In this document: positions 9,688 to 20,748 of the stretch, in pieces
Layout of the letters: every line of letters begins with the position of its first letter
How positions within the stretch are numbered: the stretch's first letter is position 1
Source of the DNA: Synechocystis salina LEGE 00031
Lineage (GTDB): Bacteria > Cyanobacteriota > Cyanobacteriia > Cyanobacteriales > Microcystaceae
Length of the DNA: 64,000 bases
Direction: 5' to 3'
NCBI RefSeq assembly: GCF_015207985.1
Contig: NZ_JADEVV010000019.1
Location: 1-64,000 of the forward strand
The notes under the pieces: generated by a model
Told to the model about the DNA's origin: nothing
The model's database searches: none
The model's input: the letters and a program-made list of their open reading frames with translations, nothing else
Made by a program: the position numbers and the translations under genes

Positions 9688-9967
9688 CTCAATAAGTCTG
9701 AAGGTTGATATTCCCCCATTCCACAGGGTTTCCCAGTATAGCGGCGGGGAATGCTCAACTATCTTCACCAAACGAACAACCCTAAACCTTGCTTGCGGGG
9801 AACTCTACAGTGGTTGCCCCTTGTGCGCCGCACCATGCTAATCGGTAAATAGCGATCGCCAAATAACGGCGCTGGGGCATTTATTTTCGCTACGCTCTTT
9901 GTCCCCGACCGGGGTTGTTTTCTGTCCGCCGCTTCGATGACCCCGTTCTTTTTTGGGGGTTTTGCCC

Positions 9968-10201
9968 ATGTCTGCTTTTCCTGTCGGTTCGGTTCGTGGT
10001 TCTGCTTTGGGTTCTGGTTGTTCCGGCTGGTTGGTTCGGCCTTCCGTTCGGGCCCAGTCCGGGTTGGTTTTGGTTGCTTCGTTCGGTTCTTTTGCCGGGG
10101 CTGGTCGTTTTGCCCGTCGTTGGTCTGGTCGGTTGGGTCGCTCTGTCTTCGTCCGGCGGGTTGGCCCTGGTTGGTCTGTCTCCGTCCCGGTTCTTGCCTA
10201 G
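9968..10201 (+). CDS. Adenine-free small gene (A occurs only in start, one Gln and stop codons)
   Basis: The coding strand of this 78-codon frame contains three adenines: in ATG (9968), in CAG for Gln30 (10056) and in TAG (10200). All three codons are ones where A is hard or impossible to avoid. The predicted protein therefore uses almost only A, C, F, G, L, P, R, S, V and W. It contains RFARRWSGRLGRSVFVRR and VGPGWSVSVPV, which look like an alpha-beta unit; I recognise no family. GGGGG lies 8-12 bp before ATG and an intrinsic terminator starts 9 bp after TAG, so it looks like a complete transcription unit. Other frames here are also open because of the composition. Confidence 0.5.
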   Translation: MSAFPVGSVRGSALGSGCSGWLVRPSVRAQSGLVLVASFGSFAGAGRFARRWSGRLGRSVFVRRVGPGWSVSVPVLA

Positions 10202-10209
10202 TTTTCCCT

Positions 10210-10234
10210 GGGGGGCTTCGGCCTCCCTTTTTTT
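10210..10234 (+). terminator. Intrinsic terminator of the adenine-free gene
   Basis: The stem GGGGGGC / GCCTCCC closes a TTCG tetraloop and is followed by seven T. It begins 9 bp after the TAG at 10199-10201 and is itself adenine-free. Confidence 0.85.
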
Positions 10235-18852: not shown

Positions 18853-18915
18853 TCATATTCGTCAAAATTTTTTGGTGTTATTCCATTTAAGGAAAAAATT
18901 TTATTTGGAATATGA
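18853..18915 (+). other. Long imperfect hairpin upstream of the cytosine-free gene
   Basis: Outer arms TCATATTC (18853) and GAATATGA (18908) and inner arms AAAATTTTTT (18864) and AAAAAATTTT (18893) pair around a 19-nt loop, with small internal asymmetry. It ends 29 bp before the cytosine-free stretch begins. It could be a structured RNA, an element end or a terminator. Confidence 0.5.
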
Positions 18916-19044
18916 TTTTTGCTTTTCTTGGGCAAAAAAAAACTTAGTGGGGAATGGAAGAGAAAAAAGAGAGGAGAGAAAGGGTATATTGGTGTATTGA
19001 AAATAAAAGTAATTTGATGTATTAATTGTAGAAGAAAAAAATGA

Positions 19045-19050
19045 TATAAT
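19045..19050 (+). promoter_or_regulatory. Putative -10 box of the cytosine-free gene
   Basis: TATAAT lies 26 bp before the ATG at 19077; TTGTAG at 19026 is too close (13 bp) to be an ideal -35. The promoter region itself is cytosine-free. GGA at 19068-19070 is a plausible ribosome site. Confidence 0.5.
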
Positions 19051-19076
19051 ATAAGAAAGTTTAAAAGGAAAAAAAG

Positions 19077-19541
19077 ATGTTTAAAAAGTTAGGAGAAGTA
19101 GAAAAAGTAAAATTTAAAAATTGGTGTGTTGATAAAAATAATTTGATGGTTAAAGAGAAATGGTTTGGTAAAGAAATTAAAGAAGATAGGAAAATGGTAT
19201 GGTTTGGGGTTGGAATTGAATTGGGAAAAAATGAAAAATTTGAAGGATTAGAAATAGATAATGGTTTGAAAAAAAGATGTTTGGAATTTTATGGAGAAGA
19301 TTTTAATAGTTTATTATTAATGAGATATGGAGATGGAAGTAAATTAAATTTACATAGAGATAGAGATTGTTTTGATAAAAAAGTAATTATTGTAAATAGT
19401 GGGGTTTGTGTGTTTGAATATGATGGAGAAAGAAAAATATTAGAAGATGGAGGAATATATGAAATAGATGGTAAAAAAAGTCATGGAGTAGTAAAAGTAA
19501 TTGGGGAAAGATATAGTTTAAGTATTAGAAAAGTTTTATAA
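19077..19541 (+). CDS. 2OG-Fe(II) dioxygenase (AlkB-like) encoded without cytosine except at two His codons
   Basis: A 154-residue protein. LLMRYGDGSKLNLHRDRD (HxD at 93-95), KKSHGVV (distal His136) and ERYSLSIRK (2-oxoglutarate-binding Arg) form the HxD...H...R core of AlkB-type Fe(II)/2-oxoglutarate oxygenases. The coding strand has exactly two cytosines in 465 bases, at 19353 and 19482, each the first base of one of these two His codons, which cannot be written without C. Accordingly the protein has no Pro, Gln, Thr or Ala. The cytosine-free stretch runs 18944-19561, so promoter and untranslated parts are purged too. AlkB-type enzymes remove alkyl groups from bases, notably 1-methyladenine and 3-methylcytosine; the substrate here is unknown. 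Confidence 0.72.
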   Translation: MFKKLGEVEKVKFKNWCVDKNNLMVKEKWFGKEIKEDRKMVWFGVGIELGKNEKFEGLEIDNGLKKRCLEFYGEDFNSLLLMRYGDGSKLNLHRDRDCFDKKVIIVNSGVCVFEYDGERKILEDGGIYEIDGKKSHGVVKVIGERYSLSIRKVL

Positions 19542-19641
19542 AAAAGTTTGATTTTTTAGATCAATCACCCCCCGCTAGTAAAATTATACCACGCTATTTC
19601 CCGGCAAGGGTAAACTCCACCTTCACCCTCCTTCTAGTGGT

Positions 19642-19796: not shown

Positions 19797-19825
19797 TTGC
19801 TTTTTGCATGGTTCCACGCTATAAT
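19797..19825 (+). promoter_or_regulatory. Promoter with CCACGCTAT motif ahead of the SLOG-like gene
   Basis: TTGCTT (19797-19802) and TATAAT (19820-19825) are spaced by 17 bp. The -10 box overlaps CCACGCTAT (19814-19822), preceded by GGTT. The same nonamer lies at 19589-19597, 20684-20692 and 20737-20745, the last two within GGAACCACGCTATAA. Confidence 0.65.
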
Positions 19826-19859
19826 GGGGGTTGTTGGTTGTTCCCCTGGGGGTTGCACT

Positions 19860-20423
19860 GTGTTGTCCGTTTCTGCCCTGTCGCCCTGCCTTGTTTCTCT
19901 GCTTTCTGCCTGCCCTGCCGTGGGGTTTTCCGGTTCCCGCTCTCTCTCCCCGTTGTCGGTTGCCGCTCTCCGTTCCCTTTCTGCTGCCGTTCTGCCTTCG
20001 GCCCGCGTTTTTGTTGGTTGTGCGGCTGGTGCCGATGCCGTTGCCCGGTCGCTTTTTCCTTCGGCCCAGGTTTTTTCTGTCAGTTCTGGTCGGTGGGGGG
20101 CTGGCCGTTCTGCCTTTGCCCGTCGGTCGGTTGCGGTGGTTTCTGCTGTTCTGTCTGCTGGTGGCCCGGCCGGTCTGTGGTGTTTCTTCCCTGCCGCCGG
20201 CTGTCCTGGTGGGTTGTTGCCTTCGGCCCGGTCTTCCCGTTGCTTTTGTGGGCTGGGGTCTGGCTCTTGGGCCTCTGCCGCCTTTGCCCTTGGGTCTGGC
20301 CTGCCGTTGCTGGCCTTCCTGCCGCCCGGTGTTTCTCCTCCTCCCGGCTGGGGCTTTGTCTCCCTGGGGGGTGGCTGGTGGGTGGCCCGCCCTGCCGCTG
20401 TCCAGTTGTCTCTTTTTGCCTAG
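19860..20423 (+). CDS. SLOG/DprA-like Rossmann protein encoded almost without adenine
   Basis: A 187-residue protein from a GTG start with GGGGG 5 bp upstream. Motifs in order: VGFSGSRS (near 20-27), VGCAAGADAVARSL (near 51-64, like the GGxxGADxxA loop of SLOG proteins), SVSSGRWGAGR, FFPAAGCPGG and GSGSWASAAFALGSGLP, the pattern of nucleotide- or nucleic-acid-binding SLOG/LOG/DprA folds. Only five adenines occur in 564 bases: in GAT (Asp), two CAG (Gln), one AGT (Ser) and TAG. Four of these five codons cannot avoid A, and even the start codon is A-free. Two other frames are also long and open, an effect of the composition. Confidence 0.6.
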   Translation: MLSVSALSPCLVSLLSACPAVGFSGSRSLSPLSVAALRSLSAAVLPSARVFVGCAAGADAVARSLFPSAQVFSVSSGRWGAGRSAFARRSVAVVSAVLSAGGPAGLWCFFPAAGCPGGLLPSARSSRCFCGLGSGSWASAAFALGSGLPLLAFLPPGVSPPPGWGFVSLGGGWWVARPAAVQLSLFA

Positions 20424-20450
20424 CGTTCAGCCCCTGCCTGTTGGTGGGGG

Positions 20451-20642
20451 TTAATCATTGGTAGCAATAATTTCTAAAATCTTGTGGCGTAATATTTCCC
20501 GCCAGTTAGAGACAGCATAAAGTTTTTCTTTTTGTTCTGGGGTAATTCGTAACGAAATTTGAGCAGTACAAGGTACTTCTCTTTCAGTTTTGAATGCGTG
20601 CTTTTTTAAATCTGGATTACCACCAGGACGACCACGACCCAT
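20451..20642 (-). CDS. Small ribbon-helix-helix-type DNA-binding protein
   Basis: A 63-residue basic protein starting GRGRPGGNPDL, with a strand ISLRITPEQKEKLYAV and helix WREILRHKILEII, fitting a short RHH regulator. It converges on the SLOG-like gene (27 bp between stops). Its own promoter region, shared with the divergent small-gene operon at 20797, carries two copies of GGAACCACGCTATAA. It is therefore the best candidate for the factor reading that motif, including at the SLOG promoter (inference). Confidence 0.6.
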   Translation of the reverse strand: MGRGRPGGNPDLKKHAFKTEREVPCTAQISLRITPEQKEKLYAVSNWREILRHKILEIIATND

Positions 20643-20683
20643 AAAAAATCCTTTGATAAATACGGCTCAAATATAGCACGGAA

Positions 20684-20748
20684 CCACGCTATAAAGTTTT
20701 GTAAATTTTCTCAAAATAAAGTATTATTGCACGGAACCACGCTATAAT
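20684..20748 (+). promoter_or_regulatory. Tandem GGAACCACGCTATAA operators/promoters
   Basis: Two copies of GGAACCACGCTATAA, the downstream one forming a TATAAT -10 box at 20743-20748 for the operon starting at 20797. The spacing of 53 bp places them about five helical turns apart. Confidence 0.65.

Follow-up and report, generated by a model that had tools for sequence, protein, structure and literature searches.

Three plasmid gene families in which most copies nearly lack one base of the coding strand

Single strands carrying 1-methyladenine or 3-methylcytosine are the classical substrates of AlkB, whose family of Fe(II)/2-oxoglutarate dioxygenases (E. coli AlkB, ALKBH2/3/5) provides the closest comparison for the first gene considered here (gene 1). 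DprA, with which the second gene (gene 2) is compared, has a full architecture that includes flanking SAM and DML1 domains, and sliding-clamp-binding motifs follow a consensus of the QL[SD]LF type. A further comparison is offered by the establishment and anti-defence genes of plasmid leading regions (ArdA, SSB, the single-strand methyltransferase M.EcoGIX; PMC11541004, PMC7736820), which enter first and are expressed from the entering strand. A term search of the main text of PMC11541004 found no mention of AlkB or DprA. Similar company is present in several of the loci collected here (L numbers): the annotated neighbours include ArdA (L002, L005, L012, L013, L023), SSB (L005, L006), Rad52 or ERF (L002, L012, L021), Gp157 (L002, L003, L023), and zincin-like proteins (L016-L019). 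A likely role in handling single strands would be common to the leading-region genes and the gene 1/2 module, a likeness that is drawn here from the neighbouring genes only. Among the matches listed in a search of the open-access literature, which leaves most subscription journals outside, there is no description of base-free genes, and the removal of one base from whole genes is unlike any codon bias or skew that we know of.

Here, we regard the following description as practically certain. In cyanobacterial plasmid gene families that are AlkB-like, DprA/SLOG-like, and a small third (gene 3), most copies are nearly without one base of the coding strand, C being missing in gene 1 and A in genes 2 and 3; this holds for the coding sequence and for approximately 20-30 nt past the stop codon, the base is kept mainly where it is indispensable, and silent sites turn over. 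In many genera, selection or mutation has been strong enough to strip whole genes, along with their untranslated ends, of one base. This reshapes the amino-acid make-up of the proteins, sparing mainly catalytic and signal residues, points to an unnamed process of plasmid biology that acts on single-stranded nucleic acid in a base-specific manner, and offers a handle on two uncharacterised proteins.

The window is the whole stretch of DNA that was analysed, with a length of 64,000 nucleotides, and its features are collected in Table 1. On the plus strand, C is located at 18943 and 19562, and between them solely at 19353 and 19482, each the first base of a CAT codon, for His93 and His136 of the ORF at 19077-19541. 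The original observation that C is confined to two histidine codons throughout 18944-19561 is borne out, and two C's are the minimum possible for the gene 1 protein. Resampling of synonymous codons, using the codon usage of 14 author-chosen neighbouring ORFs, gave an expectation of 46.6 +/- 5.2 C's for gene 1, the lowest count in 20,000 draws being 27. The C-free stretch extends from approximately 100 nt 5' of the TATAAT (19045-19050) to 20 nt 3' of the gene 1 stop codon. The claim that depletion outside the coding sequence places the pressure on the nucleic acid, not on the protein, therefore stands, and codon-level causes such as avoidance of certain tRNAs are disfavoured because untranslated parts are depleted too. 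The adjoining gene, which had been said to be depleted of A, indeed lies in a segment with seven A's. When the window was scanned in 300-base stretches with a step of 100 and a criterion of at most 12 of one base, only three base-poor places were obtained, at 9901-10200 (A), 18901-19500 (C), and 19801-20400 (A). The first observation is correct, and the phenomenon is larger than was reported.

Table 1. Features of the window discussed in the text, with coordinates counted from its first base.
Feature	Position	Strand	Remark
Gene 3, 77-aa protein	9968..10201	+	3 A: start codon, one Gln, stop
Hairpin and T-run resembling a terminator, free of A, 3' of gene 3	10205..10234	+	By eye; A's resume directly afterwards
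C-free segment comprising the upstream region, candidate promoter, CDS, and a short 3' region of gene 1	18944..19561	+	2 C/618 bases
TATAAT, candidate -10 element of gene 1	19045..19050	+	Inferred from sequence
Gene 1, 154-aa AlkB-like dioxygenase	19077..19541	+	2 C/465 bases
GGTTCCACGCTATAAT, candidate promoter/operator of gene 2	19810..19825	+	A cluster in otherwise A-poor stretch
A-free segment after TATAAT	19825..20452	+	7 A/628 bases
Gene 2, DprA/SLOG-like	19860..20423	+	GTG 19860 taken as start, following the annotation of the pSYSX copy (187 aa)
63-aa protein	20451..20642	-	Strand opposite to gene 2

In the core of gene 2 (19923-20420), 4 A's are found in 498 bases against an expected 53.3 +/- 5.7, the fewest possible being 3. 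They belong to the Asp of GCAAGAD, a Gln at 20068, a Ser (AGT) at 20082, and the Gln of the terminal QLSLF, and none of the 134 4-fold sites of the window copy carries A. One frame in the A-free stretch is conserved, reading GFSGSR...VGCAxGxD...RS...GSGSWAS...QLSLF, which indicates that the A-free neighbour is a real gene. A second overlap with gene 2 in the same genome (L038) was rejected as a shifted frame at the same place. Across all copies resampled, 3 of gene 1 and 12 of gene 2 each fall under the minimum of 20,000 draws, and the retained bases are largely forced, lying in His ligands, Asp, the Gln of the clamp-type motif, start and stop codons, and the -10 box.

According to its predicted model (pLDDT 94.1, from a 5-sequence alignment), the product of gene 1 is a protein of the AlkB fold, a double-stranded beta-helix. 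The best Foldseek match of the model is human ABH2 (E 4.7e-9), and VIA-align superposes it on E. coli AlkB with Z 17.2 (rmsd 2.4, 153 aligned) and on human ALKBH5 with Z 17.6 (rmsd 2.0, 147 aligned). H93, D95, and H136, forming the HxD...H motif, are invariant in all five closer relatives; in an alignment of 11, H93 and D95 are invariant and H136 is absent solely in L003, where the frame is cut short. R145 and R151 are likewise invariant in the five closer relatives. They correspond to the C-terminal Arg pair that serves 2-oxoglutarate in AlkB, in the position of its RYNLTFR. The identification of a 2OG-Fe(II)/AlkB-like dioxygenase made from the sequence at the outset is therefore upheld by the modelled fold and the invariant motif. 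Gene 1 shares with the AlkB family the fold over nearly the whole protein, the HxD...H motif, and the two Arg near the C-terminus; it differs in having only 154 aa, 16-20% identity to the AlkB and ALKBH5 structures, and a coding strand without C. Pfam 2OG-FeII_Oxy_2 scored 15.1 bits against the window protein (E 0.028), below its cutoff of 31.2, Cupin_2 did slightly better with 19.5 bits (cutoff 27.2, E 8e-4), and a profile search of PDB sequences returned no AlkB-named match, the best being a HisF chain with E 0.013.

The protein of gene 2 resembles the Rossmann-like core of DprA in its predicted model. The model of the core (166 aa, 37 sequences) has a pLDDT of 93.5 and matches H. pylori DprA with Z 12.1 (rmsd 2.4, 126 aligned) and ShosA with Z 10.3 (rmsd 2.7, 127 aligned), the first row outside DprA and ShosA having Z 6.6. 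Foldseek with the same core gave nothing at E <=0.001 (ShosA best with E 0.023, DprA E 0.15), the PDB sequence search gave nothing significant (best DprA, E 1.1), and the window protein was without a match in Pfam. Ten of the 37 members match Pfam DNA_processg_A weakly at E <=0.1, the best being L082 with E 1.4e-4 and 21.5 bits against a cutoff of 29.6, and in PHROGs two of the 37 weakly match a DprA-like family and two a GTP-binding one. The GSR and GCAxGxD stretches resemble motifs of DprA. Since the flanking SAM and DML1 domains are absent from this protein of approximately 187 aa, which consists of the core and short ends, it was filed as DprA/SLOG-like and not as DprA. It thus shares the Rossmann-like core with the DprA/SLOG superfamily and differs in being the core only and in having, in most copies, a clamp-type end and a coding strand without A. 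According to the author's reading of the alignment, 26 of the 37 proteins end in QLxL[FLIP] (QLSLFA in the window), a putative sliding-clamp-type motif. Such ends can also be carried by AlkB-like relatives of ordinary composition, as QLSLF in L013, EQLQF in L099, and EQLSLI/F/V in L009-L011.

Both genes are widely distributed. Among plasmid records, relatives of gene 1 were found in 16 and of gene 2 in 25, all cyanobacterial (E <=0.01), and pSYSX of Synechocystis PCC 6803 carries the pair. Among 386 cyanobacterial genomes, that of the window included, 13 contain gene 2 (E <=1e-5) and 25 contain gene 1 or distant relatives (E <=1e-4). Further loci of gene 2 came from 16 contigs of a viral collection and from 22 genome contigs, which by their titles are 21 cyanobacterial contigs and one Chloroflexi MAG. 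For gene 1, the L006 protein had no match in 50,697 phage records, a profile scan of viral contigs gave no relative, and the first scan of genome contigs gave none. Of the loci longer than 4 kb with gene 2, 13/54 also contain a gene-1-like gene (L068 and L069 being near-identical), a count that misses L015, which has AlkB annotations after gene 2. The A-poor gene 2 occurs whether or not gene 1 lies nearby, and two of the contigs that carry it are of chromosome size (L032, L034) while others are plasmids.

Which letter is missing depends on the gene family and not on the neighbourhood; the T-poor gene 2 of Picosynechococcus is the one exception known. This is evident from 92 loci with 673,135 bases, from which 13 repeated loci had been dropped beforehand and in which stretches of at least 250 bp low in one base were collected; relatives in these counts are non-independent samples, and those of ordinary composition are probably under-sampled. 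Of these, the 50 low in A all correspond to the coding strand of gene 2 or 3, the 10 low in C all to gene 1, and three of the four low in T to the minus strand of gene 2 or 3. The single G-depleted stretch is unassigned, and all but 2 of the 65 belong to the three families. As the loci were fetched by homology, the flanks of approximately 600 kb serve as an internal control, and they are nearly free of such stretches.

That the missing letter is tied to the family, whatever the host or the neighbours, suggests a cause linked to the product or to its timing. We tentatively prefer self-avoidance, to which we assign a probability of roughly 30%: each unit would omit the base on which its own product or complex acts. 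In this proposal, it is the product of the gene itself that gives rise to the exclusion. The module would handle single-stranded nucleic acid during plasmid entry or replication, the AlkB-like enzyme acting on cytosines of single strands and the DprA-like protein, with gene 3, acting on or through adenines. The nearest target would be the own transcript or the unpaired coding strand of the own gene, and copies without the target base would escape self-attack or self-binding and win. The family-bound base, the turnover among three letters, the forced nature of the retained bases, the depletion past the stop codon, the confident models, and the substrates of AlkB are counted in its favour. To our knowledge, DprA is a binding protein and not an enzyme acting on adenine, which counts against it. 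If self-avoidance were true, it would represent a new principle of gene design, in which mobile-element genes are written in three letters, each without the base attacked by its own product, so that transcript or coding strand is immune to the encoded weapon or repair activity. The missing letter would then reveal the target base, namely C in the case of the AlkB-like protein and A in that of the DprA-like protein with gene 3, perhaps also U in the Picosynechococcus branch.

An insult from outside, in which a host defence or stress damages, cleaves, or depletes C (or A) in RNA or in entering single strands while establishment genes need to be expressed regardless, is a plausible although rather unlikely competitor. 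It would fit the ArdA, zincin-like, SSB, and Rad52/ERF genes near several loci and the single-strand-specific modification during plasmid entry that is reported in PMC7736820. It would also fit the joint variation by lineage of C% in gene 1 and A% in gene 2, for which Spearman is 0.86 among replicons (n=11, without correction for relatedness; of the two gene-2 copies in L072, the A-free one was used). This co-variation hints at a cause shared by the lineage and is counted against self-avoidance. However, each of the adjacent genes avoids a base of its own and abounds in the one missing from its neighbour, with 43% A in gene 1 and 32% C in gene 2, and the other genes of the same island in the window are of ordinary composition without any such stretch. 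For these reasons, and because the base follows the family over the 92 loci, the single cytosine-specific threat to the region that was originally envisaged is not supported. CTP depletion, a ddhCTP-like analogue, a C-specific RNase, and a deaminase had been named as candidate agents.

The extent of the depletion bears on causes acting during transcription. In the mean of 42 gene-2 loci, A remains at 5-10% for 30 nt past the stop codon and is then 22-34%; the corresponding mean of 7 gene-1 loci shows 3-7% C in the first 20 nt after the stop codon, 14-31% beyond, and 0-4% across the 100 nt upstream of the ATG. By eye, the A-free part stops at a terminator-like hairpin with a T-run in gene 3 of the window, L032, and L041. 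The upstream comparison covers 17 of 38 gene-2 loci, those in which a -10 hexamer could be recognised; the author sorted them into nine strongly and eight more weakly depleted loci. The former have 40 A's in 540 bases before the hexamer, L076 and L097 contributing 25 of these, and 15 in the 712 bases that follow, whereas the latter have 104 in 480 before and 96 in 500 after. In seven of the nine, only 0-4 A's are present in the 60 nt before the -10 box (14 in L076, 11 in L097). Depletion of the leader is thus restricted to the stricter lineages, where in most cases it also extends 5' of the -10 box, a pattern that a purely RNA-level cause would not predict and that is counted against self-avoidance. 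RNA-level and coding-strand DNA-level causes are both candidates. Transcription while CTP (gene 1) or ATP (genes 2 and 3) is depleted or replaced by a chain-terminating analogue would be consistent with an exclusion that includes the start of the untranslated 3' end. It is nevertheless improbable, as adjoining genes would require two different shortages, translation would still need ATP, and the DNA upstream of the -10 box is depleted in several loci. A mutational origin, in which an activity linked to transcription of the gene itself replaces one base of the unpaired coding strand wherever function does not require it, accounts for the loss at every dispensable site, the strand specificity, and the depletion upstream of the -10 box. 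We consider it doubtful, because no mutator gene was recognised nearby and the filler bases at 4-fold sites share no common spectrum, since the window resembles its neighbours in C:G:T ratios, S. elongatus and L020 favour G, and L004 favours T.

Comparison of related copies demonstrates how the exclusion persists. Gene 1 of the window and of pSYSX differ at 33 positions, of which 28 are A/G, 3 A/T, and 2 C/T (dN/dS 0.13), and of the 43 differences in gene 2 between the same pair, 38 are among C, G, and T (dN/dS 0.15). In S. elongatus, L017/L018 have 77 differences, 71 of them without A (dN/dS 0.16), and L016/L019 have 27, 23 of them without A (dN/dS 0.09). Silent differences almost solely among the three permitted letters in these four pairs, together with low dN/dS, imply that the exclusion is being maintained at present. 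An origin by chance, skew, or assembly error, or in non-coding sequence that is decaying, might be suspected from the low-complexity look, from A-free DNA leaving nearly all frames open, from a dN/dS of 0.60 in the twelfth comparison, gene 2 of pSYSX and B12 (258 bp), and from the B12 copies, which look frame-shifted (gene 1 near the end, gene 2 in the second half). The probability of this explanation is negligible given the independent assemblies from many genera, dN/dS values of 0.08-0.27 in 11 of 12 comparisons, the confident folds, and 2 C's where 47 are expected. Chance, AT-richness, and skew are ruled out by the synonymous resampling and by flanks nearly without such stretches, and low-complexity junk is ruled out by dN/dS and the folds.

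The exclusion is graded among copies. By the author's count, 47 of 62 gene-2 copies have at most 5.6% A, 7 have 7-13%, 4 have 18-23%, and 4 are ordinary (L021 and the Picosynechococcus copies L022, L023, and L036); this count leaves out L030, identical in sequence to L019, and two weak partial matches, takes the whole-ORF figure for the fused L102, and probably under-counts ordinary relatives, since the profiles were built mostly from A-free members. Gene 1 has eight copies with at most 2% C, two of them near-identical, besides one partial copy with 3.5%, four with about 7%, and five with 11-13%; distant or partial relatives have 12-25%. Homologues of gene 3 are A-free or ordinary, the latter beside an A-free gene 2 in L032 (36% A) and L034 (40% A), and the A-poor form is fused in frame to gene 2 in L029, L072, and L102. 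It had been stated that homologues of ordinary composition with the same neighbours would speak against the original claim. Such homologues exist in part: an AlkB-like gene of ordinary composition lies directly 3' of an A-free gene 2 in L013, and L021 has an ordinary gene 2 that retains the core and the clamp-type end. The ordinary gene 2 of L021, the copies with 18-23% A, the ordinary gene 3 of L032 and L034, and the T-poor Picosynechococcus branch are counted against self-avoidance. The T-poor branch is accommodated by three-letter DNA as an anti-restriction device, which leaves no site with both G and C (or A and T) when one strand is without C (or A), works for any base, and suits the anti-restriction genes among the neighbours. 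We judge this device very improbable, the argument being that total removal far exceeds what site avoidance needs and that the remainder of the plasmid is ordinary DNA.

In the Picosynechococcus branch, the gene-2 relative at L022:3911-4525 has 46 T's against 75 +/- 4.7 expected, and that at L023:3911-4495 has 58 against 86 +/- 4.8. Both are T-poor, not T-free, and the poverty extends 3' of the stop codon. On the same Picosynechococcus PCC 7117 plasmid as the former, L022:346-735 (minus) has a coding strand with very little A and an annotated CDS at 413-685, and was not recognised as gene 2 or gene 3. A short gene at L096:856-1155 (minus), with approximately 4% C on its coding strand, lies between an A-poor gene 3 and a C-poor gene 1; it has no relative among the ORFs of the fetched loci and is possibly a fourth member, or merely AT-rich.

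An operator-like motif, GG(T/A)(T/A)CCACGCTATAA, is repeated in the window at 19810-19825, 5' of gene 2, and as similar GGAACCACGCTATAA copies at 20680-20695 and 20733-20748, preceding the gene of the 63-aa protein. This protein had no Pfam match and looks to us like a ribbon-helix-helix regulator. Related motifs, catgctataat and cgtgctataat, precede gene 1 in L041 and gene 2 in L003 and L004, and a common regulon is likely. In L089, L094, L034, L032, and L020, the A-free stretch starts abruptly after an A- and G-rich tract 5' of gene 2; in L089, the start coincides with a dyad, CGAAAGAA...TTCTTTCG, whose A's are confined to the left arm. Finally, at L007:6474-8690 (Anabaena sp. 90 pANA02), gene 1 seems to be interrupted near its 3' end by a group II intron-like element that carries a reverse-transcriptase gene, and residues like those of the lost C-terminus reappear after the element.
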